A stretch of DNA of 64,000 nt, taken from the IMG/VR virus record IMGVR_UViG_3300028844_003248, positions 1 to 64,000 of that record; one strand, 5' to 3'. Source of the stretch: a virus. The notes under the pieces are model-generated. The model made no database searches. It saw only the letters and a program-made list of their open reading frames with translations, and was not told the DNA's origin. Shown piece by piece: positions 18,100 through 40,418 of this stretch (positions are counted from its first letter, which is position 1; each line of letters starts with the position of its first letter). Position numbers and translations under genes: made by a program.

Positions 18100-18101
18100 A
18101 T

Positions 18102-18371
18102 ATGGACAATGTTTTTACGGCACTTGCCTTCCGTTCTCGTTGGGAAGACATCACACAATCGTTTCGTTTTTCAGAAAATGAGAGGCATCAAGGTACTATA
18201 GATAACTTGATGTGGTTTCTAAAAGAAGGCAAGAAAAGCAATGCTCGTAGAAAGCACTATAATGAAGCAGTGCATCTAGCGGAAGTGATTCTAGGACTCC
18301 ATGATAAAATTGACAAAGAACCCAAATCTGATAACAAACAAAAGAATCAGGGAGAACTGGTATCCTGTTAA
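18102..18371 (+). CDS. Small helical protein, 89 aa
   Basis: AGGAG precedes the ATG. The sequence is helical with a basic middle (KKSNARRKHYNEAVHLAEVIL). No known family. Its last 71 nt overlap the next gene, whose start is therefore less certain. Confidence 0.5.
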   Translation: MDNVFTALAFRSRWEDITQSFRFSENERHQGTIDNLMWFLKEGKKSNARRKHYNEAVHLAEVILGLHDKIDKEPKSDNKQKNQGELVSC

Positions 18372-19179
18372 CAAACGACAAAGGATCATAGCCAAGGCAA
18401 CAGTAGGCTGTGGTGATATTATGTTTGCCTATAATGTCGCCCATTTAAGATCCCATATAATAGAGAAGCCAGTGTATCTTGAGGTGCACTGGTTTTATCC
18501 AGAAGATTACTACCATCATTTTGAAGATCCAGAGACATTACCAGAGAGAGCCGAATATCTTCTAAAGTTCTACAATAATGATACAACAGATGTCATTATA
18601 GACCACAAATTTAACTCCACGGATTGGTCTCTCTATTATAAAAAGTTTATTGGGTTTGAAGATAAGTATGGAGAGGTTCGTAGAGGAACCAAAAGACCTA
18701 GTAATATTAAAATAAATGAGTGGCAGTTTAGAGATATAGATATCCCTGTTGTCAATAAGAAGATCACTATATGGCATTCTGCTTTAAACAGTGAGTTACC
18801 AAGACCCTTCAAGAGAACGTTTAACTTGAAAGAATGGGACCAAGTAAAGAAGATCTTAGAGATACAAGGTTATAGTGTTACGTTCATTGATTATAGAACA
18901 CCTATTCGAGAAGTTCTTTACCATATTGCTAGTTGCGAATGTGTGATCTGTTATGAAGGAATGTGGCACTACGTAGCCAAGAATCTAAACAAACCTATGA
19001 TTGTTCTCACCAAAGATTTGATTACAGGGTTTCACACACCTGCTGCAGTCAAATACAAGGTCAGAAAAGTCGAACAGCATCAGATCAGTTACTTTTATGA
19101 TATTGATAACAAGATAATCGAAGCCAAATCCATGGCTGAAAAACAAAGAAAAAAGTTGAGTTTACTATATGAAAATTGA
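18301..19179 (+). CDS. GT9/GT-B-like glycosyltransferase
   Basis: 292 aa. The early segment ATVGCGDIMFAYNVA resembles the GxGD(I/V)xxAxP opening of ADP-heptose:LPS heptosyltransferases. The C-terminal segment VICYEGMWHYVAKNLNKPMIVL looks like the nucleotide-binding part of GT-B enzymes. AGGA lies just before ATG 18301. First gene of the glycan island, overlapping the radical SAM gene by 11 nt. Sugar and acceptor unknown. Confidence 0.5.
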   Translation: MIKLTKNPNLITNKRIRENWYPVNKRQRIIAKATVGCGDIMFAYNVAHLRSHIIEKPVYLEVHWFYPEDYYHHFEDPETLPERAEYLLKFYNNDTTDVIIDHKFNSTDWSLYYKKFIGFEDKYGEVRRGTKRPSNIKINEWQFRDIDIPVVNKKITIWHSALNSELPRPFKRTFNLKEWDQVKKILEIQGYSVTFIDYRTPIREVLYHIASCECVICYEGMWHYVAKNLNKPMIVLTKDLITGFHTPAAVKYKVRKVEQHQISYFYDIDNKIIEAKSMAEKQRKKLSLLYEN

Positions 19180-20128
19180 TAGAGCGGTAATCGAGATCAA
19201 TGGTGGGTGTAACTACACTTGTCAGATGTGTCCACAAACAAATCCAGATGGAACACACGGTGCACGTGGTAAGAACTGGCTCAAGAAAATGTCACTCACA
19301 GAGTTTGAAGATAATGTTGCTCAGTGTGCAGAAGCAGGGTTGAATGTGGTAAACTTAGATGGTTCTGGAGAGGTAACACTGAACCGTAATCTGCCAGAAT
19401 ACATCAAGATCGTAAAGAAGTATGGTGCCAAGGCATTCATGTTCTCAAACGGTCTGCGTATGTCATATAACTTTATGAACGAGACTGTTGATGCTGGTTG
19501 TGATTTCTTTCGGTTTTCTATTATAGGATACAATGCTGACCTTTATTGGAAGTGGATGAATAGCCCATACTTTGGAAAGGTGATTAAAAACCTACATGAT
19601 ATGCAAGAGTATGTAACCAAGACAGGATCTGATTGTGTCGTTGCTACCTATCATCTTGTTCTGGATAATGACAATATCGACTATGAGGTTGAGCAATATA
19701 AAAAGATTGTAGAAGGTGCTGGAGTCAGTACAGAGATTTGGAAAATGCACAACTGGTCTGGTGTGTATGAACCAGAGTATGCAAGGAAAGGCAAACTCAA
19801 AACTTGTGGCAGACCGTTCTCACCTGACGTAGTAATCCGAGCAGGTGGTCTCGATGGTAACAAAGGTGCTATCCATCCTTGCTGCCAAGTATTGGGTAGA
19901 GATGATGAAGCCGTTCTGGGTCATATGAGCACGAACACACTTGAAGAGATCTGGTATGGCGAGCCTTATAACCAACTGAGAAAGCAGCACGAGATGGGAG
20001 ATTTTCCAGACTTCTGTAAAGGTTGTGATTTCTTGATTGATGATCCAGAGGTTCTTGTATACACCAATCATGATAGAAAAAACTACAAGATGCACGGTAC
20101 GGAATTTGACCTCAATGACTATCGCTAA
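19169..20128 (+). CDS. Radical SAM enzyme with SPASM-like C-terminus
   Basis: 319 aa. C14, C18 and C21 form the CxxxCxxC (CNYTCQMC) site for the SAM-cleaving iron-sulfur cluster. C-terminal cysteines (KTCGRP, HPCCQV, DFCKGC) fit an auxiliary-cluster SPASM-type domain. Such proteins modify peptides, sugars or cofactors; nothing visible fixes the substrate. It sits among glycosyltransferases and overlaps both neighbours. Confidence 0.78.
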   Translation: MKIDRAVIEINGGCNYTCQMCPQTNPDGTHGARGKNWLKKMSLTEFEDNVAQCAEAGLNVVNLDGSGEVTLNRNLPEYIKIVKKYGAKAFMFSNGLRMSYNFMNETVDAGCDFFRFSIIGYNADLYWKWMNSPYFGKVIKNLHDMQEYVTKTGSDCVVATYHLVLDNDNIDYEVEQYKKIVEGAGVSTEIWKMHNWSGVYEPEYARKGKLKTCGRPFSPDVVIRAGGLDGNKGAIHPCCQVLGRDDEAVLGHMSTNTLEEIWYGEPYNQLRKQHEMGDFPDFCKGCDFLIDDPEVLVYTNHDRKNYKMHGTEFDLNDYR

Positions 20129-20732
20129 AACACTACCGATCTACCAGATTGTAATACCAAACAATCCTATCTCAGAATACTATGCTGAGAAATCCGTGGA
20201 AAGTTTTAACAAGTTTGGGTACACAAACATCATACGTGTACATGCTAGTACCCCTGATGATATGCCAAACTATCTGTTTTTCAGTGACCAGAGAGAGTAC
20301 AGTAAAGAGCGTACACGAGAGTGGTTACCAGAAGAAAAAGCAATATGGTATTCTCATTATAGATGTTGGCATAAAATAGCAAAACAGAATGGCAAGCCAT
20401 TCGTGGGACCATCCCTTGTAATAGAACACGATTGCATTATGACAAAGGAACTGCCAGAACAACTTTTAAAGAAACGTCTTTGGTCGTTTGGTATGACCGA
20501 AGATAAGAGAAATCTAGCTGCTTTGGGTTACCTTATAAAGCCTTCAATGGCGAAAGAACTCTTGTTTATCAATCGAATTAATATGCCTGTTGATGGGTAT
20601 CTACATTCTAAGCAAGATCCTTGGTATCCTAGAGGTACATTTAAAAGCGAATATATAGATACAACCATATGCGCAGAGCATTATATTAATTCTGATATAG
20701 GCACAACAAAACCGACAATAGGTACAACATGA
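20115..20732 (+). CDS. GT25-type glycosyltransferase paralogue 1
   Basis: Start at ATG 20115, overlapping the radical SAM gene by 14 nt; the frame from 20037 runs further into that gene. 205 aa. YSHYRCWHKIA followed by LVIEHDC is the SHxxxW...(E)xD block of LOS/LPS family-25 glycosyltransferases. Two more copies of this block are in the proteins at 25858 and 27226, and in all three the acidic motif is EHD. The donor sugar is unknown. Confidence 0.6.
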   Translation: MTIAKTLPIYQIVIPNNPISEYYAEKSVESFNKFGYTNIIRVHASTPDDMPNYLFFSDQREYSKERTREWLPEEKAIWYSHYRCWHKIAKQNGKPFVGPSLVIEHDCIMTKELPEQLLKKRLWSFGMTEDKRNLAALGYLIKPSMAKELLFINRINMPVDGYLHSKQDPWYPRGTFKSEYIDTTICAEHYINSDIGTTKPTIGTT

Positions 20733-21523
20733 AACGATTGATCTATCAAGTCTACACTGGCAAGCCATCCAAATTATATGATTGGTGCACCCAGAGTGTA
20801 GAAGAATACGCAGAGAAAATAGGCGCAGAATACATTTGCCAGAGGCATCCTATCCTCAAAATAAAACCCGATGTTTTCCAAACCAATAGGAGCAAAGAAA
20901 GCTATGAGAAGTATGGTGGATTCCTTCCGATATATGAAAAAGAGAATGCGTTTGGATACCTCGACAGATTCGATCAAGTGGCAATTGTGGATGCTGATGT
21001 GTATATCAGGAGCAGTGCTTCATCTATCTTTGATGATCTACCTGTTTCTTATGACTTTGGCGCTGTAGTAGAAAGAGACATGCCACTCACTCCAGCATAT
21101 GTAAACAAGATTACAAACTACAGCAATATGCAATATGGACGTCTCAAAGATGTTGATTGGAAATGGAATAAGCGTGGTGGTGAGTTCATGAACATGGGTA
21201 TCATGGTAATGAATAAAAGCTTTGCCAAATACCTCAAAGGTCAAACCCCTAAAGAGTTCCTACAGCGCAGTGAGTTCCAAAGGTTTATCAACGGTGATGG
21301 TGCTTGGAAATGGTCTACTGATCAAACGCTGCTGAACTGGTGGATTCGTAAGGAGAAGATGAACATCAAAAATATGGATTGGAAATGGAATGGATTGTAT
21401 GCAGCAAATACCAAGATTGGATACTGCGATTTCGTGCATTTCTTCCTCAAAGATAAGTTGCCCAATAAGGGTGAGAATGTAAAAGAGTTGATGGAAAGTA
21501 TCGATGAGACTTATATCCCATAG
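20729..21523 (+). CDS. GT-A (GT8-like) glycosyltransferase, 264 aa
   Basis: VAIVDADVYI at about residues 84-93 provides a DxD motif for metal/nucleotide-sugar binding. Later STDQTLLNWW and the terminal aromatic, His-containing segment (CDFVHFFLKDK) match the GT8-like pattern. Overlaps neighbours by 4 and 20 nt. The acceptor is unknown. Confidence 0.6.
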   Translation: MKRLIYQVYTGKPSKLYDWCTQSVEEYAEKIGAEYICQRHPILKIKPDVFQTNRSKESYEKYGGFLPIYEKENAFGYLDRFDQVAIVDADVYIRSSASSIFDDLPVSYDFGAVVERDMPLTPAYVNKITNYSNMQYGRLKDVDWKWNKRGGEFMNMGIMVMNKSFAKYLKGQTPKEFLQRSEFQRFINGDGAWKWSTDQTLLNWWIRKEKMNIKNMDWKWNGLYAANTKIGYCDFVHFFLKDKLPNKGENVKELMESIDETYIP

Positions 21524-21941
21524 AGGCAATATCAACGGCCCAAAGCCCAAATATGAAAACACGACAAGTTATATACTCGAAGCTATTCAAGAAGGTTACG
21601 ATGTAGAGATAGACCTAAGAAGAGAAGATAATGCGTTGTGGTTGGGTCATGATGATAAATCAGAAAAGATCCGCACAAGCTTTCTGTATGACAATTTTGA
21701 CAAACTTTGGATTCATTGCAAAGACATGAGTTCTCTTTCATATCTCAACCGTTCGAGTCTCAACTACTTTTGGCATGAGAATGATGATTACACGATAACC
21801 TCACGTGGATGGATCTGGGCCTATCCTGGTAAACAAGTAGAAATACATACTGTATCAATAGCTGTTTTACCAGAGATAAATAAGACTAATGTAGACAACT
21901 TTTCAGGAGTTTGCAGTGATCAGATAGGACTTTACAAATGA
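21504..21941 (+). CDS. GDPD-like phosphodiesterase fold, short form, 145 aa
   Basis: MRLISHRGNINGPKPKYENT carries the HRG and EN of glycerophosphodiester phosphodiesterases. GYDVEIDLRREDNALWLGHD adds the E.D metal pair and the LxHD turn. The protein is about half the usual length, so it may be a minimal or derived TIM barrel. It is coupled (4-nt overlap) to the RuBisCO-like gene, hinting at a shared phosphorylated substrate; that link is inference. Confidence 0.6.
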   Translation: MRLISHRGNINGPKPKYENTTSYILEAIQEGYDVEIDLRREDNALWLGHDDKSEKIRTSFLYDNFDKLWIHCKDMSSLSYLNRSSLNYFWHENDDYTITSRGWIWAYPGKQVEIHTVSIAVLPEINKTNVDNFSGVCSDQIGLYK

Positions 21942-22996
21942 AATATTATACTGTTATATATGAAGTAGATGGACCAGACATTCAAAAGGCTGCTTGGAAT
22001 ATTGCAATCGGTCAGAGTATTGGTAATCCAAACATTCGATCTGAAATCGAAACAGCACAGAACATCAAAGATTTTGAAGCAACGATTGAATCCATCGAAG
22101 GTAATATTGTAAAGATAAACTTTCCTTTAGATGCATGGGATTGGCCTAATCTAAATCAACTTATGTGTGTTATCCAAGGTGGTCAATCAGACATTGAGTG
22201 TGTGCACCGATGTCGAGTCATTGATATCGAAGGTTTGCCATATATGAATGAACCAGTGCTTGGTCTCAAGAAATGGAAAGAGCGAGTCGGTGCAGAGAAT
22301 CGACCTCTATTTGGTGGTATTATTAAACCAAAATCTGGATTGACCCCAGACCAGATGATGAGTATTGTACAGCAGATGATTGATGGTGGTGCTGATTTTA
22401 TCAAAGAAGATGAGATCATGGCTAATAATAGCTACTATCCATTGAGTGCTAGAGTAGATGATGTAACGAAAGCCATCAAAGATTCTGGATGGAAAGGTGT
22501 ATATGCGTATTGTGTCAATGCAGATCCTTTACAGATAATCGACAATTTGAATACGATTAAAGAACATGGCGGTGAAGCATGTCATATCAACTTCTGGTCT
22601 AGTATGGGTGCATATACAACTTCCAATAAACTAGGTGTTGTAACACATTTTCAAAGATCTGGTATTCGAACATGGACAGATCCAAACAACAGATTTTCTA
22701 TTTCTTGGAACGTAATCGTAAAACTTGCTATTATGGCAGGTGTTGATTCCATGCACGTTGGTATGCTTGGTGGATACTATCCAGAAGGTGAGTCAGAAGA
22801 GGAGACGCATAAAGCAGTTTCTGATCTGATCAACACCGACCGAGTTGCTGCCTTGAGTTGTGGCATGAACCCAGAAATTGCAAGAGAGATCCGTGGTCTG
22901 ATTGGAAACGATTGGATGGCTAACATTGGTGGGTGGCTACATACTGGAGAAACCATCTATGAAAAAGTTTACGAAATGAGAAAGAGCCTTGAATGA
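21938..22996 (+). CDS. RuBisCO-like protein (RuBisCO large-subunit superfamily)
   Basis: 352 aa. K130 and K132 in GGIIKPKSGLTP match the KPKLGL strand of RuBisCO. DFIKEDE gives K156, D158 and E159, matching the carbamylated Lys and two metal ligands. H273 (MHVGM) aligns with the catalytic loop-6 His. SCGMNPE and NIGGWLHTG correspond to the phosphate-binding turns. The loop-6 lysine of true RuBisCO appears as Tyr (GGYYPEG), so carboxylation is unlikely and an enolase, isomerase or decarboxylase role is more probable. It shares 4-nt overlaps with a GDPD-like gene and a sugar nucleotidyltransferase. Confidence 0.82.
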   Translation: MKYYTVIYEVDGPDIQKAAWNIAIGQSIGNPNIRSEIETAQNIKDFEATIESIEGNIVKINFPLDAWDWPNLNQLMCVIQGGQSDIECVHRCRVIDIEGLPYMNEPVLGLKKWKERVGAENRPLFGGIIKPKSGLTPDQMMSIVQQMIDGGADFIKEDEIMANNSYYPLSARVDDVTKAIKDSGWKGVYAYCVNADPLQIIDNLNTIKEHGGEACHINFWSSMGAYTTSNKLGVVTHFQRSGIRTWTDPNNRFSISWNVIVKLAIMAGVDSMHVGMLGGYYPEGESEEETHKAVSDLINTDRVAALSCGMNPEIAREIRGLIGNDWMANIGGWLHTGETIYEKVYEMRKSLE

Positions 22997-23712
22997 AAAT
23001 TATATTACCTATGGCTGGCAATGGTCAGCGATTTTTTGATGCTGGTTATGATCTACCAAAACCCCTAATCGATGTCAAAGGTGCTCCTATGTTTAAAAGA
23101 GTGCTAGACAATATTACTGATGAATATAAAGGTGTAGAGGTTGTTGCAATCGTTAGACCAGACCACGTAGAGAAATATTCGATTGATCAAAAGCTAAAAG
23201 AAGCACTTCCTAACATTGAGATTGTAGTAACAGATGGACCAACCGAGGGTGCAGCTTGTACTGTAATGTTGGCGATTGACCAATATAGTGAAGATGAGGT
23301 TCTTATTGCAAACTGTGATCAGATCGCAGAGTTTAATGCCTCTATATTTCACACATTCAGTACAACATCTGATGGAACTATTCTAACCTTCTTTAGTGAT
23401 AACCCAGAGCCAAAACACTCTTATGTCACAGTTGATTCACAAGGGTTCCTTAAAGAACTCGCAGAAAAAAGAAAGATATCGGATGTAGCTACAGTGGGGG
23501 TTTATCACTTTAGTTCACAGCGAGAGTTTAGTAATGCAGTAAAAGCTATGATGGAAGCAGACGATAGGATCAATGGAGAGTTCTATCTCGCTCCTGTGTA
23601 TAACTATTACAGAGGAAATGTATCTTGTTTTGATTGTACTCAAATGTATGGTATGGGAACTCCAGAAGAACTAGAAGCATTCAAACAGACAGATTATTAT
23701 GAGGCACTATGA
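22993..23712 (+). CDS. Sugar-phosphate nucleotidyltransferase
   Basis: 239 aa. MKIILPMAGNGQRFFDAGYD then PKPLIDVKGAPMFKRVLDNI is the G-x-G-x-R...PKP signature of nucleotidyltransferases such as RmlA/GalU relatives. VLIANCDQI holds the metal-binding Asp. It should activate a sugar- or polyol-phosphate with NTP; which one is not visible. It follows the RuBisCO-like gene with a 4-nt overlap. Confidence 0.8.
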   Translation: MKIILPMAGNGQRFFDAGYDLPKPLIDVKGAPMFKRVLDNITDEYKGVEVVAIVRPDHVEKYSIDQKLKEALPNIEIVVTDGPTEGAACTVMLAIDQYSEDEVLIANCDQIAEFNASIFHTFSTTSDGTILTFFSDNPEPKHSYVTVDSQGFLKELAEKRKISDVATVGVYHFSSQREFSNAVKAMMEADDRINGEFYLAPVYNYYRGNVSCFDCTQMYGMGTPEELEAFKQTDYYEAL

Positions 23713-24431
23713 AACTAGCAGTATGTATGAACGGACTCTTCCGTAATCATGTGAAACCACATGTGGGAGTACTCCACAAAAGATTTCACGAAAAATTTCC
23801 AACAGCAGATTTTTACTACCACACGTGGACAGAGTTTGAAAATACTGTCCCATCGCAGTATAAAATGAATCAAGACTATTTCTTTACTGATCCAGAGCCA
23901 AAACTAAAATACCACCCTATCTCTGATTCTAAAACAAATTGCAAACACGGTAAATGGCATCCCTATAAATCAGGTAACTTAATGCGTCACAAGACCCAAA
24001 ATGGGTCCAAGCAGATCCTTGGATATGCTATGATGCACAAGAATATCCAGAAGGAATATGACGTTGTGATTCGTGCACGATGGGATACTGCACTTGATGA
24101 GCAAGTAGATTTTACTCCATATATAGAAATGGCTTACGAAGAAGGTCCAGTAGGGTTTTCTATAAGAGGAAAAAGAGGTCCATCTGGAAAAGACGGTAAG
24201 GTTAAAATTGTAGAAAAGACTGACTATGATCCAATGGATGATTGGTTTGGTTATCTACAAGATGCTTTGATTATACACAAACAAGAACATTTTGATCCAG
24301 ACTACGTTTTGCAGTTACATAAAGACGAAAACTTATGGCCTGCAGAATGGGGATGGTATCAAGTGATGAGTTTACCGTATGGTGATGATATTCATACGAG
24401 TTGTCATGGTGGTGCTTATATAGCAAGGTGA
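23709..24431 (+). CDS. Putative glycosyltransferase-like protein, 240 aa
   Basis: Begins MKLAVCMNGLFRN, has ADFYYHTWTE and YDVVIRARWDTAL, then WGWYQVMS near the end. This resembles phage and bacterial GT-A-like proteins of capsule loci, but I cannot name a family. Tightly coupled to the nucleotidyltransferase. Assigned mainly from context. Confidence 0.45.
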   Translation: MKLAVCMNGLFRNHVKPHVGVLHKRFHEKFPTADFYYHTWTEFENTVPSQYKMNQDYFFTDPEPKLKYHPISDSKTNCKHGKWHPYKSGNLMRHKTQNGSKQILGYAMMHKNIQKEYDVVIRARWDTALDEQVDFTPYIEMAYEEGPVGFSIRGKRGPSGKDGKVKIVEKTDYDPMDDWFGYLQDALIIHKQEHFDPDYVLQLHKDENLWPAEWGWYQVMSLPYGDDIHTSCHGGAYIAR

Positions 24432-24438
24432 GGTTAAA

Positions 24439-25122
24439 ATGATACCAAAGGTTTTTATACACATTCCCAAAAATGGCGGAATGACTATCAGGCGCAGTCC
24501 ACTACTCAGAGATAAAGTTCGTGTTGCGACCCCTGATATACACAAGTCCAAAGAATATTCAAACGCAGTTCTGACTACAATGAACAAAAACAATGATCAC
24601 CATGGCTATGAACATGCACGATGGCGAGATCTGAAAAGATCTGTGGTGGAAGGTTTTGGATCATTTGCCATTGTAAGAAACCCATGGGATCGTGTCGTTT
24701 CAAGATATTTCTTTGCAAAGAAAGTAATCGAGGTAGAGATGGGACAACCAGCATCGTATGCTGATGTCACTTCTTTTGAAGCATTTATCGAGGAAAGGCA
24801 TAAATGGGGCGATAAAGATTACATGTGGCATCGTGCAGTAAGAGGCTGGTATCCAGCACTTGACCATGTTACTGATGAAAAAGGTAATATCAAATGTGAT
24901 ATACTATCGTTTGAGGATTATAACTCGGATGTAATGGCATACTTTAATCTCAGTGAAATGTCCAGAGCACGTAATGTAACAGCTATGAACAAAGGGATAT
25001 ATACAGATGTATATACACCAGAGACAAGAAACATTATTGGTGATTGGTACAAAGATGATATCGAAACATTTGGATATGATTTTGGAACAGGTCCAACCAA
25101 AAATTTATGGAGAATGAAATGA
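24439..25122 (+). CDS. Sulfotransferase-family protein 1
   Basis: 227 aa. VFIHIPKNGGMTIR is the 5'-phosphosulfate-binding loop of PAPS-dependent carbohydrate sulfotransferases, and AIVRNPWDRVVSRYFF the 3'-phosphate-binding motif with Arg and Ser. It probably adds sulfate to a glycan. A second, divergent copy lies at 26597. Cofactor supply would come from the host. Confidence 0.75.
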   Translation: MIPKVFIHIPKNGGMTIRRSPLLRDKVRVATPDIHKSKEYSNAVLTTMNKNNDHHGYEHARWRDLKRSVVEGFGSFAIVRNPWDRVVSRYFFAKKVIEVEMGQPASYADVTSFEAFIEERHKWGDKDYMWHRAVRGWYPALDHVTDEKGNIKCDILSFEDYNSDVMAYFNLSEMSRARNVTAMNKGIYTDVYTPETRNIIGDWYKDDIETFGYDFGTGPTKNLWRMK

Positions 25123-25808
25123 GTGAACTGTTGAAAATCTTTGATAAACATGACTGCGACAAGGGTAGTCGTAAGCACTTTTATAATGAGGTCTATGAAC
25201 CGCACTTTGAAAAGGTGAGAAACGATCCTATTAATATCTTAGAGATTGGTGTTTTTCTAGGAGAGAGCACTGCTGCTTTTCATGAGTATTTTCCTAATGC
25301 TAACATCTATGGCATCGACATTTTTGTTCGTACAAGTCCAGAAGATTTAGAAATCTTGAAAGAGGAGAGGGTTCATTTTATCAAAGGTGATTCGATGGAC
25401 CCAATGATTAAAACACAGATTGAAGAAGAATGGCCTGGAGTTAAGTTTGATATCATCATTGATGATGGTGCTCATTGGCCTGAAGCAAATCGTCTCACGT
25501 TTAAACACACAGCACCATTTTTGAAAGAAAAGGGTAAATATTTTGTTGAAGATGTTTGGCCTATTGATGAAATGGGTATTGAAGATATCAATCATTATTG
25601 GATTAAAAAGAACCCAGACCGTTACAGCCAGACTAGCTATAAAAAGTTTTTAAATGAGTTTTCCTTTGGATATATCAGTGAATGGTACGATGTGAGACAA
25701 AAGACCAAACTTTCAAGTCTCGTAAAAAGAGGTAAGGGTAATAAACCAGAGTGGATTTCTGACAGCACTATTATGTTGATCGAACATGACCATACCATTA
25801 CCATTTAA
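25119..25808 (+). CDS. SAM-dependent methyltransferase (MycE/CmcI-like)
   Basis: Start at ATG 25119 overlapping the upstream TGA, with GGAG upstream; ATG 25107 is an alternative. NILEIGVFLGESTAAF is the SAM-binding glycine loop, ANIYGIDIF the acidic strand II end, and FDIIIDDGAHWPE the metal-linked Asp pair found in sugar O-methyltransferases of antibiotic pathways. It probably methylates a sugar hydroxyl. 229 aa. Confidence 0.7.
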   Translation: MSELLKIFDKHDCDKGSRKHFYNEVYEPHFEKVRNDPINILEIGVFLGESTAAFHEYFPNANIYGIDIFVRTSPEDLEILKEERVHFIKGDSMDPMIKTQIEEEWPGVKFDIIIDDGAHWPEANRLTFKHTAPFLKEKGKYFVEDVWPIDEMGIEDINHYWIKKNPDRYSQTSYKKFLNEFSFGYISEWYDVRQKTKLSSLVKRGKGNKPEWISDSTIMLIEHDHTITI

Positions 25809-25857
25809 TATTGACAAACCATCATTAGAAAAGGTACTCGAAAGGACAAAGTATAGA

Positions 25858-32214: not shown

Positions 32215-33722
32215 GATACTGTGGATATTCGGAACTCTTTCATGACGCTGGACTTGCGTTCGTAGAAGATGGTGAGATAGAACTGGCTGTTCATGCAGAA
32301 AGGTTTTCTGGCATGAAATTTGATCACAGTCTGACACAAGAGATGTTTGACATGATTCGTTGGATGGATCATGTTACGTTCTATGAAGATCATGATCTAA
32401 GAAACAAGTCAATATATCATAAAGGTGCCATATCAAGCTTTAGTCATGATGTTTGGATTGATGCTATGTTCCGACCTGTAAGCAATGGTAATCTACAAAA
32501 TCAAAACAACATATCGAGTAGTCTTGTCTATGATGATTGTATTACCCACCACCAAAGTCATGCAGCAATGGCATACTATACCAGACCTTGGGAATCATCT
32601 GAGGACACCGTAATACTTACCATTGATGGTATGGGAGAAGCACAATCAGTTTGCATTTATGACCATAACTTGAAACTACTGGACCACTGGAACAACCCAA
32701 AAAGTATTGGAGTTTACTATACACAAACAGTCAAATCTACTGGCTATAGAACGATGGAAGATGAGTATGTGATTATGGGACTTTCTGCTTACGGCAACAA
32801 TGAGTGGGGAGATGAGTTCATAAAGAAGTTTGATGCGCTACCACCGTATGACCCAGATGAGCCTGATATTACTACACGGATGATGTACGAGTCCATGCGT
32901 CAACATTGTAGGTGGATTCATAACCGAATCAAAAAATCCAGCCACGAAAATTCTGCTGCATCAATACAGAAGTTTGCCGAACACTTTATCATTGATCGAG
33001 TGATCGAGGCACGAAAATATGGTAAGAAGTTATGCTATGGGGGCGGCGTTGCTCAAAACGTTATTGCCAACTCTATGATAAAAGAACTGGGTATTTTTGA
33101 CGATATCTGGATTGCGCCTTCTCCTACTGATGCTGGATCTGCACTTGGTGCAGCAGCACACTCATACTGCACTGCAACAGGGAATACTAGGATCAACTGG
33201 AAAAACTCCTTCCTTGGCACAGAGATAGAGGGAGATCCGAATCCCAAAGCCATAGTCGAATACATACTCGAACACAAGGTATGTGGACTTGCTACAGGTA
33301 AGGCAGAGTATGGTCCAAGAGCACTTGGTAACAGAAGCTTGATTGCAGATGTGAGGTATGACGTCAAGGATACGGTCAATGAAATCAAACGCAGACAGAA
33401 GTTCAGACCGTTTGCCCCTGCAATCATGGAAGAGTTTGTTGATGACTATTTTGATGGTCCAACGAATGAATACATGCAGTACCAAGCAAAGGCTTTACAC
33501 GACTATAAGTCAGTGACACACGTTGATGGCACAGCAAGAGTTCAAGTCGTCAAGAAGGATTGCGGCACAGTTCTCAGATCCGTTCTAGAAGAGTACTACG
33601 AAAAGACAGGAGTACCAATGCTGTTGAATACCTCATTGAATATTAGAGGGAAGCCTATGGTCAACACAATGAAGGATGCTCGACGTTGGCAAGCCAAGTA
33701 TGGCGTCAAAGTCTTCTCTTGA
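32211..33722 (+). CDS. NodU/CmcH-family carbamoyltransferase
   Basis: 503 aa. HHQSHAAMAYYTRPW, ILTIDGMGE, LCYGGGVAQNVIAN and EYGPRALGNRSLIADV are hallmark segments of O-carbamoyltransferases (NodU, TobZ), which use carbamoyl phosphate and ATP to carbamoylate sugars or antibiotics. The C-terminal TsaD-like half appears complete (KFRPFAPAIMEE). Overlaps the aminotransferase by 4 nt and is last in its unit. Confidence 0.85.
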   Translation: MRYCGYSELFHDAGLAFVEDGEIELAVHAERFSGMKFDHSLTQEMFDMIRWMDHVTFYEDHDLRNKSIYHKGAISSFSHDVWIDAMFRPVSNGNLQNQNNISSSLVYDDCITHHQSHAAMAYYTRPWESSEDTVILTIDGMGEAQSVCIYDHNLKLLDHWNNPKSIGVYYTQTVKSTGYRTMEDEYVIMGLSAYGNNEWGDEFIKKFDALPPYDPDEPDITTRMMYESMRQHCRWIHNRIKKSSHENSAASIQKFAEHFIIDRVIEARKYGKKLCYGGGVAQNVIANSMIKELGIFDDIWIAPSPTDAGSALGAAAHSYCTATGNTRINWKNSFLGTEIEGDPNPKAIVEYILEHKVCGLATGKAEYGPRALGNRSLIADVRYDVKDTVNEIKRRQKFRPFAPAIMEEFVDDYFDGPTNEYMQYQAKALHDYKSVTHVDGTARVQVVKKDCGTVLRSVLEEYYEKTGVPMLLNTSLNIRGKPMVNTMKDARRWQAKYGVKVFS

Positions 33723-33747
33723 CAGTAAGTAGAATTTACGCTATACT
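33719..33747 (+). promoter_or_regulatory. Sigma70-type promoter
   Basis: TTGACA (33719-33724) overlaps the carbamoyltransferase stop; 17 bp ending in CGC, then TATACT (33742-33747). It drives the small genes from 33781. Confidence 0.65.
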
Positions 33748-33933: not shown

Positions 33934-33947
33934 TGATTGGACAATAG

Positions 33948-34184
33948 ATGATCACTAACGAGATGGAGTATGACGAAACCATTATTACTGTTATGGATGA
34001 TGATGGCTTGTATGAAGATGTACAAGTCTTCTTAGATGACAATGAGGTTTATATCAGGCAATATAATGAGGTTGACGATAAACATGATCTAGTGGTCATG
34101 AGTTGTGAAATGTACTTGCAGATGTTGAGTGCAATGAAGCTACCAGAGGGTATGTTTAAGTTTGAGTTTAAAGATAAACCTTGA
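33948..34184 (+). CDS. Small acidic protein, 78 aa
   Basis: Acidic, beta-alternating sequence (ETIITVMDDDGLYEDVQVFLDD). No recognised family. Its stop overlaps the -35 of the next promoter. Confidence 0.5.
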   Translation: MITNEMEYDETIITVMDDDGLYEDVQVFLDDNEVYIRQYNEVDDKHDLVVMSCEMYLQMLSAMKLPEGMFKFEFKDKP

Positions 34185-34209
34185 CAAGCAGCGAATCGTT
34201 TGCTATAAT
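34181..34209 (+). promoter_or_regulatory. CGAATC-class promoter
   Basis: TTGACA (34181-34186), 17-bp spacer with GCGAATCG and TGC before TATAAT (34204-34209). One of the best examples of the spacer motif. Confidence 0.75.
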
Positions 34210-34234
34210 GGTATTATAGCAAAGGAGTTTTATA

Positions 34235-34435: not shown

Positions 34436-34444
34436 AGGTGAACC

Positions 34445-35383
34445 GTGAAGAAATCACTCACCTTATTCAAGTCTCAGTTTGACAACAAGACACACAAACG
34501 TATCGACTTCGCATCTTTTGATGAGTTGGAGATGCTTTTGCGTAACCTAAGTAAACAGACTAAGAAGGGTAAAAAAGATGCTGAACTTATTTCGCCAGCT
34601 ATATACAAGGCTGACTCTACTAGAGCCAATGCAAATGTTCTTGCTTGGGCAGGCTGGTGTGCTCTTGATGTTGATGATTTTACTTTTGACGGGGAGTTAG
34701 AGGATGTCCTCCGCAATAAGTTTGGTCAGTATCGGTATGTATGTTATAGCACTGCCAGCAGTACTGATGATCATCCGAAGTTTCGCCTTGTCTTCGACAT
34801 TGAGAGCGAGGTTAGCGCAGATGTCATTAGGCATTTCTGGTTCGCACTCAATAAAGAGTTTGGAGACCTTGGAGATGCGCAGACTAAAGACCTATCTCGC
34901 ATGTATTACATCCCTGCAGATTATGCTAACGCTAGTAACTTTTTCTTTACTAATAGCGGCGATAGTCTTGACGCTCACTCCATTATGGCTCGACATCCCT
35001 ACAGTGACAGAAGTACTGCTAGAACCTTCTTAGAAAGAATTCCAGAAGAGTTAGCCAAACAAGTAATAGAGTATCGAAAATCTCAGTTACAGAATACACA
35101 CTTCTCTTGGTCATCCTATCTAAACTGCCCATTTGTGAATAAGAGTTTGATATCTGAATATAGAAGTATTGCTCACATTGACAACTCTGGCAGATATGCC
35201 ATGATATATAAGATCATGTGTTCGATAGCATCCAACGCTGTCAAGAGGGGATATCCAATACAGACATCAGAGATTGTTGATCTGATTAAACAACTTGATG
35301 GTGATACATCACGCAGATATGAAAAGAGACCACTGGATATCGAAGCAGATAGAGCAGTGGAATATGCATATAGGAATCTATAA
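34445..35383 (+). CDS. Archaeo-eukaryotic primase-like protein (GTG start)
   Basis: 312 aa from GTG 34445, preceded by AAAGGTG. GWCALDVDDFTFDG offers a DxD-type metal motif, and CYSTASSTDDHPKFRLVFDI the following H-x-(K/R)-x-R strand seen in prim-pol and replication-protein AEP domains. The C-terminal helical part (residues about 215-312) resembles a PriCT-like region. This is a low-similarity assignment; a second, non-T4 priming activity would be notable. Confidence 0.5.
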   Translation: MKKSLTLFKSQFDNKTHKRIDFASFDELEMLLRNLSKQTKKGKKDAELISPAIYKADSTRANANVLAWAGWCALDVDDFTFDGELEDVLRNKFGQYRYVCYSTASSTDDHPKFRLVFDIESEVSADVIRHFWFALNKEFGDLGDAQTKDLSRMYYIPADYANASNFFFTNSGDSLDAHSIMARHPYSDRSTARTFLERIPEELAKQVIEYRKSQLQNTHFSWSSYLNCPFVNKSLISEYRSIAHIDNSGRYAMIYKIMCSIASNAVKRGYPIQTSEIVDLIKQLDGDTSRRYEKRPLDIEADRAVEYAYRNL

Positions 35384-36159
35384 TGAGAATTATTGCTGGA
35401 CCTTGCCAACACGAAACACTTGAAAAGTCAATGGAGATTGCAGAGCACTGTGATCTTGTGTGTAGCAAATATGAAATGGATTATTACTTCAAAGCGAGTT
35501 ACGACAAAGCAAATCGGACACATGTAAAAGGGTACCGAGGTGTTGGTATCAATAAAACCATGCACGATTTTTTACAGATCAAGAAGAAAGGCATCAAAAT
35601 TCTTACCGATGTACACAGTGTGCAAGATGCTTACATGGTCAAGTATTGGGGTGCGGTTGATGTAATACAGATCCCTGCATTCTTGTCTCGGCAAACAGAT
35701 ATTCTTCAAGCAGCACGTGATACTGGCTTGATCGTCAATGTTAAAAAAGGTCAGTTTATGGCACCTTGGGATTTGGACGGTGTTTTATCTAAGCTTGATG
35801 GTGCAAGAGAAGTCTGGTTAACAGAGAGAGGAACGAGTTTTGGGTACAATAATCTTGTGGTTGATTTTAATGGGCTTCAGTATATGCTGGGTGCTTACGG
35901 TGATGATGCTGTTGTTTTTGATGGAACCCACTCCGTCCAACAACCGTCTGCGAACGGCACTAGTAGTGGTGGCAATAGGGAGTACGTTCCTGGTCTTTTG
36001 CGTTCTGCCGCTGCTTTGGGTGTTCGTAACTTTTTCTTAGAGGTTCATGCGAATCCAGATGATGCACCAAGTGATGGACCAAACATGGTTCGACTAGATG
36101 ATTTTGAGGAGATAATCAATGAGATCGACCGCTATTCTTATTCCCGCACGGATTGGTAG
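35383..36159 (+). CDS. kdsA: 3-deoxy-D-manno-octulosonate 8-phosphate synthase
   Basis: 258 aa. IIAGPCQHET, FKASYDKANRTH, ILTDVH, VIQIPAFLSRQTD, NVKKGQFMAPWD, TERGTSFGYNNLVVD, FDGTHSVQQP and FLEVHANPDDAPSDGPN follow the KdsA active-site order. It condenses PEP with arabinose 5-phosphate to KDO-8-P. The start overlaps the primase-like stop by one base. Confidence 0.92.
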   Translation: MRIIAGPCQHETLEKSMEIAEHCDLVCSKYEMDYYFKASYDKANRTHVKGYRGVGINKTMHDFLQIKKKGIKILTDVHSVQDAYMVKYWGAVDVIQIPAFLSRQTDILQAARDTGLIVNVKKGQFMAPWDLDGVLSKLDGAREVWLTERGTSFGYNNLVVDFNGLQYMLGAYGDDAVVFDGTHSVQQPSANGTSSGGNREYVPGLLRSAAALGVRNFFLEVHANPDDAPSDGPNMVRLDDFEEIINEIDRYSYSRTDW

Positions 36160-36811
36160 TACACGGTTTCCAGAGAAACCACTCTGTAATCTAGGTGGAA
36201 TGCCTATGATTAAAAGAGTTTACAATGCTTGTAAAGAGTATGGATTACCTACATATATACTTACTGACTCTCTCAAAGTAGCAAGCCTATTTCAAAACAC
36301 CAGTGTCATTATTGATGATGAGGATTACAAGAATGGAACAGAAAGGTGTTCAGGCGCAGTAGGTAAAACAGATTATCTGGATAAGTACAACTACTTTATT
36401 AATGTACAAGGCGATATGCCAGACATCACTCCAGATATCATTAAAAAAGTACATGAAAAGGTGTATCAAGGATCAATTTCAACAGCATTCTGTGATATAG
36501 AAGAACCAGAAGTTATGAAGGATCTCAACTCAGTGAAGGCTGTTGTCACTGGAGATCCTGATTTCCACGGCAATATCAAATGGTTTGGTCGTGGATTTAT
36601 GTACGGTTATCATCACCTAGGAATATATGGGTATGATAGGCGGTGCCTACTCAAATATAGAAACCTTGGTAGTAGGTATGAAGATCACGAAGGTCTAGAG
36701 CAACTGAGATGGATCGAAAATGATTACAAGATCATTGGCTCTAGAGTAAAATTTAACGGTATTGAAATCAATACTCCAGAAGATATGGAGAAATGGAATG
36801 CAAGCAGGTAA
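36119..36811 (+). CDS. kdsB: CMP-KDO synthetase
   Basis: 230 aa. STAILIPARIGSTRFPEKPL is the CTP-binding signature of KdsB. NGTERC, FINVQGDMP, HHLGIYGYDR and EQLRWIENDYKI complete the family pattern. It couples KDO to CMP for transfer. The ATG lies 41 nt inside kdsA, after GAGGAG. The phosphatase KdsC and isomerase KdsD are not evident nearby. Confidence 0.9.
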   Translation: MRSTAILIPARIGSTRFPEKPLCNLGGMPMIKRVYNACKEYGLPTYILTDSLKVASLFQNTSVIIDDEDYKNGTERCSGAVGKTDYLDKYNYFINVQGDMPDITPDIIKKVHEKVYQGSISTAFCDIEEPEVMKDLNSVKAVVTGDPDFHGNIKWFGRGFMYGYHHLGIYGYDRRCLLKYRNLGSRYEDHEGLEQLRWIENDYKIIGSRVKFNGIEINTPEDMEKWNASR

Positions 36812-37154
36812 AGTGTGGGGTACGACTGAATTGATTGAGGCAAATGGTGCCTTGGAGTTTCATCGTATCGAAATGGATCGTGGCGGCGTTTGCTCAAAGC
36901 ATCTCCACGAGTTCAAGTGGAATGGATTCTATGTCGAGTCTGGTACTATGCTTGTTCGTGTATGGCAGAAAGACTATGACCTAGTGGATGAGACTATCCT
37001 CCATGCTGGCGATTACACTAAAGTAAAACCTGGCGTATATCATCAGTTTGAATGCATAGCCGATGGGGTAGCGTATGAACTGTATTGGGCAGAGTTTAAT
37101 CACAATGACATTAAAAGAGAATCAGTTGGTGAACTGAAAGATGTGGAAATCTAA
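36798..37154 (+). CDS. Cupin protein 1
   Basis: Start ATG 36798 with GGAG upstream, overlapping kdsB by 14 nt. 118 aa. CSKHLHEFKWNGFYVESGTM (H-x-H...E) and KPGVYHQFECIA (distal His) make a single cupin metal site. Nucleotide-sugar or sugar-phosphate isomerases and small mannose-6-P isomerase-like cupins look like this. Paired with a second cupin next door. Confidence 0.65.
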   Translation: MQAGKVWGTTELIEANGALEFHRIEMDRGGVCSKHLHEFKWNGFYVESGTMLVRVWQKDYDLVDETILHAGDYTKVKPGVYHQFECIADGVAYELYWAEFNHNDIKRESVGELKDVEI

Positions 37155-37517
37155 ATGAAGAACAACTTGAGAGTTAACATCAACGATGTTGGTGGTGAGA
37201 TTGCAAAAGAAGATGAGCGATATATCGTTAAAGATAATACACGACTCAAAGACGTTGTACTTTCATCTACTCGACTTAACCCTAACTGTGCCACAAATGG
37301 GCATAAACACGAGGGTCAAGAAGAGGTTTATATCTTCCAAAGCGGAAGCGGTATCATGGAACTTGACGGTGTAGAACATACGTTTGCGGATGGTGATATT
37401 TTTCTCATCGAAGATAATGTGTTTCATAAGGTGACCGCTGGACCAGACGGTGCTTATTTCATCTGCGTATTTAATGGAGCACGGTACGATCATGTGGCAG
37501 TGTTAGGCTACAACTAA
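37155..37517 (+). CDS. Cupin protein 2
   Basis: 120 aa. GHKHEGQEEVYIFQSGSGIMELDG supplies H-x-H...E, and EDNVFHKVTAG the distal His. The start follows the previous stop directly. Likely a sugar-modifying or binding cupin; substrate unknown. Confidence 0.65.
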   Translation: MKNNLRVNINDVGGEIAKEDERYIVKDNTRLKDVVLSSTRLNPNCATNGHKHEGQEEVYIFQSGSGIMELDGVEHTFADGDIFLIEDNVFHKVTAGPDGAYFICVFNGARYDHVAVLGYN

Positions 37518-38209
37518 TGCACTATATTTTTGATGTCGATGGAACGCTCACACCTAGCCGTGGTAAAATGGATCAGAAGTTTTCTAACTGGTTTGAGCAT
37601 TTCCAGACACATCACGCTACGTATATGGTAACTGGATCTGATAAAGAAAAGACCATCGAACAAGTGGGGTGGAATCACTATAAGTCTTGCATTCGAGTCT
37701 ACAACTGTAGTGGTAATGATGTATGGGAATCTGGTAGTCATGTCAGAACTAACAAGATGACGATGCCTGATAAATGGGAAAGCATTTTAGGTAGAATTCT
37801 AGAGAATAGTAAATCGCCAGTTAAGAAAGGCAATCATTTTGACTTGAGGCCAGGGTTGTTTAACTTCAGCACTTTGGGTAGAAACGCTACACTTGAAGAT
37901 AGAGCAATCTACAAAAAGTTTGATAAGGTATACGATGAGAGACTAGTATTGACAGAACAACTGCAGAACATTTGGCCTGATTATGAAATCACTATTGCTG
38001 GAGAAACTGGCATCGATATTGTACCAAAAGGATACGACAAAAGCCAGATCATACACGACTTTGGACCAAAGGATCAGATAATATTCTTTGGTGATAAGAT
38101 GGAACCAACAGGCAATGACTATACGCTTGCTTTAGAAGTAGCGCATTCTGGTGGTACAGTCCATCAAGTTAAATCATGGAAAGATACATGGCGAATATTA
38201 CAGGAATAA
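37517..38209 (+). CDS. Phosphomannomutase-type HAD enzyme (eukaryotic PMM-like)
   Basis: 230 aa. FDVDGTLTPS is the phosphate-accepting motif; MVTGSD is motif II. RPGLFNFSTLGRNATLEDR, GIDIVPKGYDK and IFFGDKMEPTGNDY match the alpha-phosphomannomutase arrangement rather than bacterial PMM. It would interconvert hexose 6- and 1-phosphates to feed nucleotide-sugar synthesis. Confidence 0.75.
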   Translation: MHYIFDVDGTLTPSRGKMDQKFSNWFEHFQTHHATYMVTGSDKEKTIEQVGWNHYKSCIRVYNCSGNDVWESGSHVRTNKMTMPDKWESILGRILENSKSPVKKGNHFDLRPGLFNFSTLGRNATLEDRAIYKKFDKVYDERLVLTEQLQNIWPDYEITIAGETGIDIVPKGYDKSQIIHDFGPKDQIIFFGDKMEPTGNDYTLALEVAHSGGTVHQVKSWKDTWRILQE

Positions 38210-38604
38210 CATTTTCAACATTTGACCTACTACACGCTGGTCACGTGGCAATGTTACGAGAAGCAAAAACCCAATGCGATTATCTCATTTGTGGACTACA
38301 AGTAGATCCAAGCGTAGATAGACCAGAGAAAAATGCACCAGTACAGACATTGGTTGAACGATGGATGCAGCTACAAGGTGTATCGTATGTGGATGAGATC
38401 ATCCCATACCAGACCGAGACTGATGTAGAAGACATTTTAAAACTTTTAAAACTAGATCTTAGGATTATTGGCGAAGAGTATAAAGACGGTAAATTTACTG
38501 GACGTGCCACTTGCGCTGCAAGAGGAATTGAGTTATACTACAACAAACGAGATCACCGATTTAGCACCACTGATTTGAGAAAGAGAGTTATAGAAAATGG
38601 CTAA
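38188..38604 (+). CDS. Glycerol-3-phosphate cytidylyltransferase-like enzyme
   Basis: Start ATG 38188, preceded by GGAAAG; ATG 38176 is in the same frame. GITFSTFDLLHAGHVAMLREA holds the HxGH nucleotide site and RFSTTDLRKRV the STT motif. The layout (about 138 aa) fits TagD/HldE-C-like cytidylyl- or adenylyltransferases activating a polyol- or sugar-phosphate. Overlaps the HAD gene. Confidence 0.75.
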   Translation: MANITGITFSTFDLLHAGHVAMLREAKTQCDYLICGLQVDPSVDRPEKNAPVQTLVERWMQLQGVSYVDEIIPYQTETDVEDILKLLKLDLRIIGEEYKDGKFTGRATCAARGIELYYNKRDHRFSTTDLRKRVIENG

Positions 38605-39553
38605 AATAGCTATCACTGGTGGCGCTGGCTTCATTGGATATCATTTAGCAAAGCACTATGTTGCTCTCGGTCATGATGTGGTTTGTTGCGATAGCTTCAA
38701 TGACTACTATGATCCACAGCTAAAATATGCAAGAGAGAACCAGTTAGAGGGTATAGATGGATGCGAAATCCTAGATCTAACGTGGAGAGAAAGTGTTGCC
38801 AAATGGATATATGAAACTGAGCCTGATCTAGTCATTCACCTTGCTGCTTATGCTGGCGTCAGATATTCTGTGGAATATCCACAAAAATACATTGACAATA
38901 ACATCATAGGAACCCAAAACCTCATTGAGGCTTGTGAGAGTTATGGGGTCCACAAAGTTGTGTATGCCTCTACATCATCTGTCATGTCAGGCAACCCACT
39001 GCCCTACAATGAGGCTGATAATCTACCGCACCAGAAGCATCCTTATGGTATGACAAAGGTTGCCAATGAGAGCCAGTTCATGGGAAGTAGTATCGACACT
39101 ACGATAGGATTACGGTTCTTCACTGTATATGGACCATGGGGTAGACCTGATATGGCACTGTTCGACTTCACGAAAAAGATCATTGCTGGAGAGCCAATCA
39201 CACTATTCAATAATGGAGATATGATTCGAGACTTTACCTATATCGACGATATCGTACAAGGTGTGGATCTTGTAGTGAAGAATGCTCTGAATACGACATT
39301 GCCCAAAAAGAAAGATATATACAATATAGGTTATGGAGAACAAGTGCAGTTGATGGACTTCGTTGACCATATTGAAAAGAACCTTGGTAGGACTGCTATC
39401 AAAGAATACGCACCAATGCACCCAGCAGATGCTCATGCGACTTGGAGCGATACAACTAAACTACAGAAACTAGGATACAAACCAACCACTTCGATTGCTG
39501 AAGGGGTAGAGGCATTCGTGGCTTGGTATAAAGGATATTATAATGTCAACTAA
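38597..39553 (+). CDS. NAD-dependent sugar epimerase (UDP-glucuronate epimerase-like)
   Basis: 318 aa. ITGGAGFIGYHLAKHY binds NAD, CCDSFNDYYDPQLKYAR is typical of UDP-glucuronate 4-epimerases, and YASTSSV with HPYGMTK gives the catalytic Ser and Tyr-x-x-x-Lys. It acts with the dehydrogenase directly downstream (11-nt overlap) in a uronic-acid pathway. Confidence 0.85.
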   Translation: MAKIAITGGAGFIGYHLAKHYVALGHDVVCCDSFNDYYDPQLKYARENQLEGIDGCEILDLTWRESVAKWIYETEPDLVIHLAAYAGVRYSVEYPQKYIDNNIIGTQNLIEACESYGVHKVVYASTSSVMSGNPLPYNEADNLPHQKHPYGMTKVANESQFMGSSIDTTIGLRFFTVYGPWGRPDMALFDFTKKIIAGEPITLFNNGDMIRDFTYIDDIVQGVDLVVKNALNTTLPKKKDIYNIGYGEQVQLMDFVDHIEKNLGRTAIKEYAPMHPADAHATWSDTTKLQKLGYKPTTSIAEGVEAFVAWYKGYYNVN

Positions 39554-40418
39554 AATCGCTATCGTGGGACATGGTTTTGTCGGTAAGGCAGTGGACTATG
39601 GGTTCAACTCACCAGACATAGAGAAGATCATCATTGATCCAATCTTGGGAACAAGTATTGAGGATCTTGATGGTGAAGATCTCACAGCAACTTTCGTGTG
39701 CCTACCAACACCTATGGGACAAAATGGGCATATTGATTGTCAGCTAGTGGCTGAGACTGTAGAATATCTGAAAGAGAATACCTACGGGTTGATCATTGTA
39801 AAATCCACGATTACCCCTGATATTGTAAGACGCCTTACCCTAGCAAAGAATGCTGCGATGCCAACAGACAAACTTTTTAAACCTGCACCTGGTAAACACA
39901 CTGATAGAGTTGTCTACAATCCAGAGTTCCTAGCAGAAAGAACAGCAAACGAAGACTTTGCCAATCCACAACTGCATGTGTTTGGTGGACATCCAAACAA
40001 GACCAAGGAAGCCGAAGAGTTGTACAAGCAGTACAGCATCTGTAAGCCTTGCCAGTCTTTTCATATGAGTGCAGTGGACGCAAGCTTTGTCAAGTACGGT
40101 ATTAATTCTTACCTTGCTACCAAGGTTGCTTGGTTCAATCAATACTATGATATGGTGAACAACCACGGTGGCAACTTCTACAAAGTTCTCAACGCCATTA
40201 CCCATGATGACCGAGTAGGAACCAGCCATACTGCTGTTCCAGGTTATGATGGCAAAAGAGGTTTCGGTGGAGCATGTTTTCCCAAAGACACATCTGCCCT
40301 ACTTGGATTTGACCCATCTCTTACAATCTTACGAGAGGCATGTACCATCAACAATGCCATGCGCTCTATGTATGAGAAGGATGACCGTGAGAAAGAACAG
40401 AATATTTCTTTCGATTGA
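39543..40418 (+). CDS. UDP-sugar 6-dehydrogenase
   Basis: 291 aa, shorter than the usual 390-440. IAIVGHGFVGKAV binds NAD, TFVCLPTPMG, VYNPEFLAERTA and FVKYGINSYLATKVAWFNQ follow, and RGFGGACFPKD contains the catalytic Cys. The C-terminal UDP-binding domain seems reduced. It oxidises a UDP-hexose to the uronic acid; the exact sugar is not determined. Confidence 0.82.
   Translation: MSTKIAIVGHGFVGKAVDYGFNSPDIEKIIIDPILGTSIEDLDGEDLTATFVCLPTPMGQNGHIDCQLVAETVEYLKENTYGLIIVKSTITPDIVRRLTLAKNAAMPTDKLFKPAPGKHTDRVVYNPEFLAERTANEDFANPQLHVFGGHPNKTKEAEELYKQYSICKPCQSFHMSAVDASFVKYGINSYLATKVAWFNQYYDMVNNHGGNFYKVLNAITHDDRVGTSHTAVPGYDGKRGFGGACFPKDTSALLGFDPSLTILREACTINNAMRSMYEKDDREKEQNISFD

Follow-up and report, generated by a model that had tools for sequence, protein, structure and literature searches.

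A RuBisCO-like protein clade beside a sugar-type nucleotidyltransferase in the glycan island of a T4-like phage

The T4-like cyanophages S-CAM9, Bellamy, S-SM2, SynMITS9220M01 and B23 carry glycan or lipopolysaccharide (LPS) clusters in which genes for glycosyltransferases and sugar-nucleotide enzymes run along one strand. The stretch of DNA analysed here, i.e., positions 1 to 64,000 of the IMG/VR virus record IMGVR_UViG_3300028844_003248 (64,000 nucleotides, hereafter the window), likewise contains such a run, at 18301-40418. The cyanophage clusters hold homologs of two genes of this island, one for a nucleotidyltransferase (17 records, 16 Synechococcus phages) and one for a protein resembling glycerophosphodiester phosphodiesterases (GDPD; 16 records), but they carry the pair without the gene that lies between the two in the window, which encodes a RuBisCO-like protein (RLP). 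S-CAM9 (L131, 5341-6726) differs further, in that its nucleotidyltransferase homolog carries an N-terminally fused HAD phosphatase domain. Another related system is that of LicC, which belongs to the LicC/LicD-type phospho-alcohol decoration of glycans. There too, a nucleotidyltransferase is found beside a LicD-family transferase, as in Legionella, whereas the upstream enzyme is here an RLP and LicD was not seen among the scanned proteins of the window island.

The chemistry of several RLPs has been described, and PMC6302742, together with NCBIfam names, gives an enolase (MtnW), a decarboxylase (OiaX) and an isomerase (the R. rubrum RLP). According to the same paper, RLPs with a known job are mainly catabolic or act in salvage (methionine salvage, apiose use). 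These three proteins and the one studied here have in common the RuBisCO fold and a metal-carbamate lysine with acidic ligands; the present clade differs by invariant substitutions of its own and by its operon with nucleotidyltransferase and GDPD-like genes. IV-GOS is an RLP clade named in PMC10173188, and unplaced RuBisCO homologs from Global Ocean Sampling (GOS) were noted in 2007. Viruses with a RuBisCO homolog are already known: PMC12615777, PMC12607003 and PMC8506154 report virus-encoded RbcL in soil, landfill ("RbcL-like") and Great Salt Lake viromes, likewise as RuBisCO-superfamily genes on viral contigs, and the first of them reports a soil viral rbcL1 active with rbcS (PMC12615777). 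The present clade is predicted from its residues to be non-carboxylating, unlike the soil rbcL1; the published proteins and the unplaced GOS homologs may include it. No paper on a clade with these invariant residues and this cassette was found by full-text searches of Creative Commons-licensed PMC articles.

We identified the product of 21938-22996 as a member of the RuBisCO superfamily, i.e., an RLP (form IV in the broad sense). Its sequence matches 8vgs in the PDB (2.8e-21), and a profile built from 41 members hits RuBisCO structures with E-values as low as 4.5e-57. The model of its fold (pLDDT 91.7) gives query TM values of 0.80-0.87 to RuBisCO structures among the best 50 matches, and the N-terminal domain PF02788 scores 20.2 bits, slightly under its cut-off of 20.7. 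Against NCBIfam, the window RLP stays far below every cut-off (best 104/497 bits), as do 7/7 other members. The identities rejected in this way include MtnW, the 2,3-diketo-5-methylthiopentyl-1-phosphate (DK-MTP-1-P) enolase (TIGR03332, 36.8 of 513.6 bits; PRK09549, 49.9 of 409 bits), and OiaX, the 3-oxo-isoapionate-4-phosphate decarboxylase (NF042437, 95.5 of 700 bits).

The active site was then read in spinach RuBisCO numbering, mapped through a form I sequence; K334, N123, H294, E60 and T65 belong to the carboxylase catalytic set. All five are replaced in 51/51 members, which speaks against a bona fide RuBisCO, and the changes E60G, T65N, W66P, N123G, H294Q, K334Y and G380C are invariant in the same 51. 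In 51/51, K175 and K177 are kept, as are the lysine that carries the carbamate (K201) and the ligands D203 and E204; S379, G381 and G403 are kept as well among the active-site positions of the family. H327 is retained in 35/51 members, and 16/20 distant phage rows have Q there. Because the residues for carboxylation and substrate binding are replaced throughout, no carboxylation is expected, and the protein is predicted to bind Mg2+ and should enolise its substrate. In three close phages, the RLP shows nonsynonymous divergence (dN) of 0.016-0.023 against synonymous divergence (dS) of 0.30-0.72, and it is therefore under strong purifying selection.

The cassette and the two genes adjoining it are the following:

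20729..21523, + strand: putative GT8-like glycosyltransferase, preceding the cassette (GT8 in relative L003 at 0.0046, below cut-off; family f14, in 12 loci)
21504..21941, + strand: compact GDPD-like phosphodiesterase, cassette (PDB profile matches 7e0v, 7.4e-05, and 3i10, 3e-04)
21938..22996, + strand: RLP, core of the cassette, 352 aa (Pfam PF00016, 2.7e-27)
22993..23712, + strand: sugar-type nucleotidyltransferase, cassette (PF12804, 8.4e-08, 33 bits against a cut-off of 27; PDB 4evw, 2e-35)
23709..24431, + strand: putative GT-A-fold transferase adjoining the cassette (predicted structure)

RLP loci were recovered 35 times in IMG/VR and 23 times in GTDB genomes, from phages, SAR11, Legionella, other bacteria and archaea; two GTDB loci, L058 (outside the clade) and L059, are counted neither as members nor in the neighbour counts. 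In the tree, the 51 complete members group together with support 100/100 and separate from the form I, archaeal and other RLP sequences retrieved; since the tree program flags long branches, we claim no position for the clade among RuBisCO forms. Split or cut RLP frames (L014, L031, L032, L034, L035 and L057) entered neither the tree nor the residue table. Two of these frames, on the viral contigs L014 (909-1980) and L031 (9962-11128), are split in two, by frameshift, sequencing error or decay. In one SAR11 family, the RLP occurs in 2/147 genomes, one of them the source of a known locus. By tblastn it was found in none of 50,697 phage records, PHROGs has no family for it, and a viral structure library gave 8 matches at E <= 0.001, partial or barrel-like only, with a best TM of 0.44. 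A megablast of the whole island against phages also gave no match. Three further loci from the class of Azospirillum (L088, L089 and L090) match RuBisCO_large at 147-210 bits and have odd residues at RuBisCO sites, without the usual catalytic set in an unchecked alignment; they are used for no conclusion.

The neighbourhood of the RLP is conserved across these groups. Within 1.5 kb, a nucleotidyltransferase of the RmlA/GlmU type is present in 45/56 family loci (18/20 cellular), a GDPD-like protein in 30/56 (12/20 cellular) and a small cupin in 22/56 (4/20 cellular). On the contrary, none of these three was found at 45 control loci of other RuBisCO-superfamily genes (0/45), which come mostly from two taxon samples with about 1.5 kb on each side. 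When loci were grouped at 90% identity, a nucleotidyltransferase lay on the same strand within 2.5 kb in 18/20 viral and 12/16 "cellular" clusters, the latter including a phage contig (L037); in GC-rich loci, the greedy gene caller used for these clusters overlooked some nucleotidyltransferases and GDPDs, which the 56-locus counts correct. The order GDPD-RLP-nucleotidyltransferase recurs in Elusimicrobia, Azospirillum and Verrucomicrobia loci. In 3/3 Legionella species, a gene of family f114 stands divergently beside the RLP-nucleotidyltransferase pair, and that of L. nautarum is LicD (PF04991, 1e-42). The GDPD-like protein, of about 150 aa, keeps H6, G8, E18, N19, E35, D37, H49 and D50 in 26/26 sequences and R7 in at least 90% of them (L031 differs), so that the HRG motif, the E-x-D motif and a second catalytic His are all present. 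On one viral contig (L012, 11101-14349), a PEP mutase gene (6.7e-38) follows the RLP cassette, along with TPP decarboxylase domains in split form and an aminotransferase-like gene; this arrangement resembles a phage-borne operon for phosphonate biosynthesis.

From the fold and family of the RLP, its loss of carboxylase residues, its retained metal-carbamate centre, the selection acting on it and its neighbourhood, we infer the steps of a small pathway. The RLP would enolise, isomerise or decarboxylate a phosphorylated ketose-like compound, the nucleotidyltransferase would activate its product, and GT25, GT-A and related transferases (LicD in Legionella) would attach the activated unit, while the GDPD-like enzyme may make or trim a phosphodiester in the same route. 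The sulfotransferases, methyltransferase and carbamoyltransferase that follow in the first part of the island (block A) would finish the surface glycan. During infection, the envelope glycan of the host could thus be altered, e.g., against superinfection; a change of the virion is less likely. We give a probability of about 0.6 to block A being a glycan-decoration operon whose conserved core consists of RLP, nucleotidyltransferase, GDPD-like protein and, in many relatives, cupin. The most likely product of the cassette is a nucleotide-activated phosphorylated unit, which the island transferases would then add to a surface glycan.

Several observations weigh against this proposal. The Pfam GDPD family PF03009 does not match the protein at 21504-21941, for which 0 families were found, and its GDPD homology rests on profile matches to GDPDs of the PDB. 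Moreover, 26/56 loci have no GDPD-like gene within 1.5 kb of sequenced flank, 11/56 have no nucleotidyltransferase within that distance, partly because contigs end, and the cupin that adjoins the RLP in many relatives does not adjoin it in the window. The acceptor, most likely a surface glycan, is deduced from the neighbouring genes only. We consider it an even call whether the clade is a separate, anabolic class of the RuBisCO superfamily that supplies the precursor for a nucleotide-activated glycan or phosphodiester unit, carried by a mobile RLP-nucleotidyltransferase-GDPD-cupin cassette with which phages rewrite the host surface. If this is true, a clade fixed beside a nucleotidyltransferase would extend the RuBisCO superfamily into glycan biosynthesis and would give a direct genetic handle on the function of orphan marine RLPs. 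For phage biology, a surface modification is proposed and genes worth testing are pointed out. The core cassette offers a strong, testable starting point for understanding an orphan enzyme clade.

The RuBisCO_large match, together with the virus-encoded rbcL genes in print (PMC12615777, PMC12607003 and PMC8506154), could be taken for a carbon-fixing RuBisCO serving as an auxiliary metabolic gene. This is extremely improbable, given the residues replaced in 51/51, the position of the clade in the tree, away from form I and archaeal sequences, the length of only 352 aa, and the lack of any Calvin-cycle partner among the scanned island proteins. RuBisCO matches in viromes need not mean carbon fixation, and the present case is a warning in this respect. 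That the RLP replaces the phosphoheptose isomerase of cyanophage-type clusters was also rejected, as the S-SM2 protein annotated in this way (103 aa) looks HAD-like. It is unlikely, to a lesser degree than carbon fixation, that the cassette yields a soluble small molecule (an osmolyte, or a phosphonate- or antibiotic-like compound) and not a glycan unit. The B12 radical SAM enzyme, the aminotransferase and the NodU-type carbamoyltransferase do resemble natural-product enzymes, and L012 places its PEP mutase and TPP-decarboxylase genes directly after the RLP. However, the genes around the cassette in the window encode mostly glycan-type transferases, LicD accompanies the pair in Legionella, and PEP mutase was found in 0/5 viral records tested, with only a below-cut-off match on another contig of the metagenome-assembled genome (MAG) discussed below.

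The preliminary description of this DNA had offered host-surface change, virion decoration or DNA hypermodification as roles of the island, and among these the surface glycan is the best reading. Phage-borne glycosyltransferases can modify virion proteins, and the present data fit both targets; a decoration of tail fibres or capsid is thus a real, if minority, possibility, which is made less natural than an envelope product by the presence of the RLP-nucleotidyltransferase pair in SAR11, Legionella and other cellular genomes. T4-like phages glucosylate DNA, and the island has many transferases, but DNA hypermodification found no support and is highly improbable: the thymidylate synthase/hydroxymethylase family was not found in the record of the window nor in 3/4 other viral records (possibly fragments), and Kdo enzymes, sulfotransferases and a cassette present in cellular genomes fit it poorly. 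A last question, also raised in the preliminary description, is that of an assembly chimera with host DNA, which would be betrayed by breaks in composition at the edges. The window belongs to a 65,539-base IMG/VR record, itself a fragment, and its source is a T4-like phage: PhoH-like, exonuclease and ribonucleotide reductase genes lie left of the island, and genes for a sliding clamp (gp45), a gp32-type single-stranded DNA-binding protein, a baseplate hub, a tail-tube cap and a baseplate wedge lie right of it. The GC content is flat (0.399 in the left flank, 0.399 in block A, 0.414 in block B, 0.411 in the right flank), and collinear versions of the island with phage genes on both sides exist on a 66-kb viral contig and on a 142-kb contig (G001:C58, the same as L037). 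The latter comes from a MAG bin assigned to Sphingobacteriales; since its collinearity with the window extends into the phage genes on either side and it carries a clamp homolog, it is a T4-like phage contig. A chimera is thereby refuted for block A, where independent contigs are collinear across the RLP region, and is practically ruled out for the whole.

The remaining features of the island and the promoter-like sites around it are listed below:

17267..17295, + strand: promoter-like site TTGACA-N17-TATAAT, perfect (12/12), upstream of block A
18301..19179, + strand: no family above cut-off; belongs to family f44, shared with 3 viral relatives and the 142-kb contig
19169..20128, + strand: radical SAM/SPASM enzyme (Pfam PF04055, 1.1e-11; PF13186, 1.2e-07)
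20106..20732, + strand: GT25 glycosyltransferase (Pfam PF01755, 2e-07)
24439..25122, + strand: sulfotransferase (Pfam PF03567, 2.2e-10)
25107..25808, + strand: methyltransferase (Pfam PF13578, 2.8e-07)
25786..26619, + strand: GT25 glycosyltransferase (Pfam PF01755, 5.5e-17)
26597..27229, + strand: sulfotransferase (Pfam PF03567, 4.5e-06)
27226..27876, + strand: GT25 glycosyltransferase (Pfam PF01755, 4.2e-08)
27863..28504, + strand: putative nucleotide-diphospho-sugar transferase (PF03407 in relative L003 at 0.0012, below cut-off)
28497..29099, + strand: no family found; homologs in 4/5 loci compared (L004 ends before it)
29096..31039, + strand: B12-binding radical SAM enzyme (PF04055, 7.9e-11; PF02310, 9.6e-09; nearest NCBIfam KedN5, 1.4e-47, below cut-off)
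31039..32214, + strand: class-III aminotransferase (Pfam PF00202, 2e-31)
32211..33722, + strand: NodU-type carbamoyltransferase (Pfam PF16861, 1.2e-45; PF02543, 4.9e-36)
33719-33747, + strand: promoter-like site, 11/12, between blocks A and B
34181..34209, + strand: promoter-like site, perfect, between blocks A and B
34445..35383, + strand: primase-like replication gene that divides the blocks (PHROG phrog_9765, 3.2e-51)
35383..36159, + strand: KdsA, Kdo-8-phosphate synthase, block B; DAHP/KDO8P synthase family (NCBIfam PRK05198, 311.8 bits, cut-off 242; second model TIGR01362, 304.1 bits, slightly under its cut-off of 314)
36119..36811, + strand: KdsB-like cytidylyltransferase, block B (PF02348, 1.9e-22; KdsB models below cut-off)
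36798..37154, + strand: cupin (Pfam PF07883, 4.6e-08, scored from the TTG at 36762)
37155..37517, + strand: cupin (Pfam PF07883, 2.2e-09)
37517..38209, + strand: HAD/PMM-like phosphatase or mutase (Pfam PF03332, 2.3e-24)
38176..38604, + strand: RfaE domain II-like nucleotidyltransferase (PF01467, 4.4e-13; TIGR02199, 8e-20, below cut-off)
38597..39553, + strand: NAD-dependent sugar epimerase (Pfam PF01370, 1.1e-48)
39543..40418, + strand: UDP-sugar dehydrogenase (Pfam PF03721, 1.3e-14; PF00984, 2.2e-13)

This is a real phage-borne glycan and small-molecule island, an elaborate case of the known phage glycan clusters. The preliminary description had counted about 26 overlapping genes; we find 27 on the plus strand between 18301 and 40418, with 23/26 junctions overlapping by 1-41 nt, one abutting, one with a 7-nt gap and one with a 722-nt gap (for these junctions the starts 27848 and 36801, placed manually, differ by a few nt from the nearest ATGs at 27863 and 36798). 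Most of the earlier inventory is confirmed; it missed the RuBisCO_large gene and the GDPD-like gene. Pfam matches above cut-off agree with it on two sulfotransferases, a methyltransferase, two radical SAM enzymes (one SPASM, one B12-binding), the aminotransferase, the carbamoyltransferase, three nucleotidyltransferases (22993, 36119 and 38176), the Kdo enzymes, the epimerase and the UDP-sugar dehydrogenase. From the at least eight glycosyltransferases announced, three of the GT25 family stand above cut-off, 18301 and 28497 have no family, and three are weaker: two candidates are GT8/Nucleotid_trans-like through relatives below cut-off, and one is suggested by its GT-A-type predicted fold. For this last one (23709-24431; pLDDT 88.7), a Foldseek TM of about 0.5 to an NTP transferase/GnTI and a VIA-align Z of 12-13 point to the general GT-A/NTP-transferase fold only, and its sequence profile retrieved nothing useful from the PDB. 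The phrase "close to a full LPS-like pathway" was overstated, as no lipid A and no O-antigen polymerase or flippase family appeared among the scanned island proteins.

The island, presented earlier as a single stretch, is not one unit but two blocks divided by the primase-like gene and promoters. Block A (18301-33722; with the genes from 17512 on, 17512-33722) is probably one transcription unit, because a perfect promoter-like site stands at 17267 and the next plus-strand sites lie only at 33719 and 34181, with none matching at least 11/12 between 17267 and 33719. The primase-like gene probably opens the unit containing block B (35383-40418), which groups Kdo, heptose and uronate enzymes. Across the window, 13 strong sigma-70-like sites (TTGACA-N17-TATAAT, at most one mismatch) were counted against 0.98 expected, and 0/100 shuffles reach 13: 9894, 13401, 15479(-), 17267, 33719, 34181, 40422, 41166, 45492, 52297(-), 52339, 52522 and 53986. 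The 17-nt spacer contains GAATC at 8/13 of them, against 1.5% of random window 17-mers, a pattern suggestive of a phage-specific promoter element; across the window, GANTC is under-represented (207 against 276 expected). In G001:C58 and G450, homologs of the epimerase and dehydrogenase lie near the primase-like homolog, apart from block A, while in G449 those of KdsA, KdsB and a cupin directly precede block A; the island is therefore modular.

Outside the island, the window encodes at 1492-3378 a cytidyltransferase-like protein whose C-terminal part matches HNH endonuclease families, possibly a homing-endonuclease fusion.

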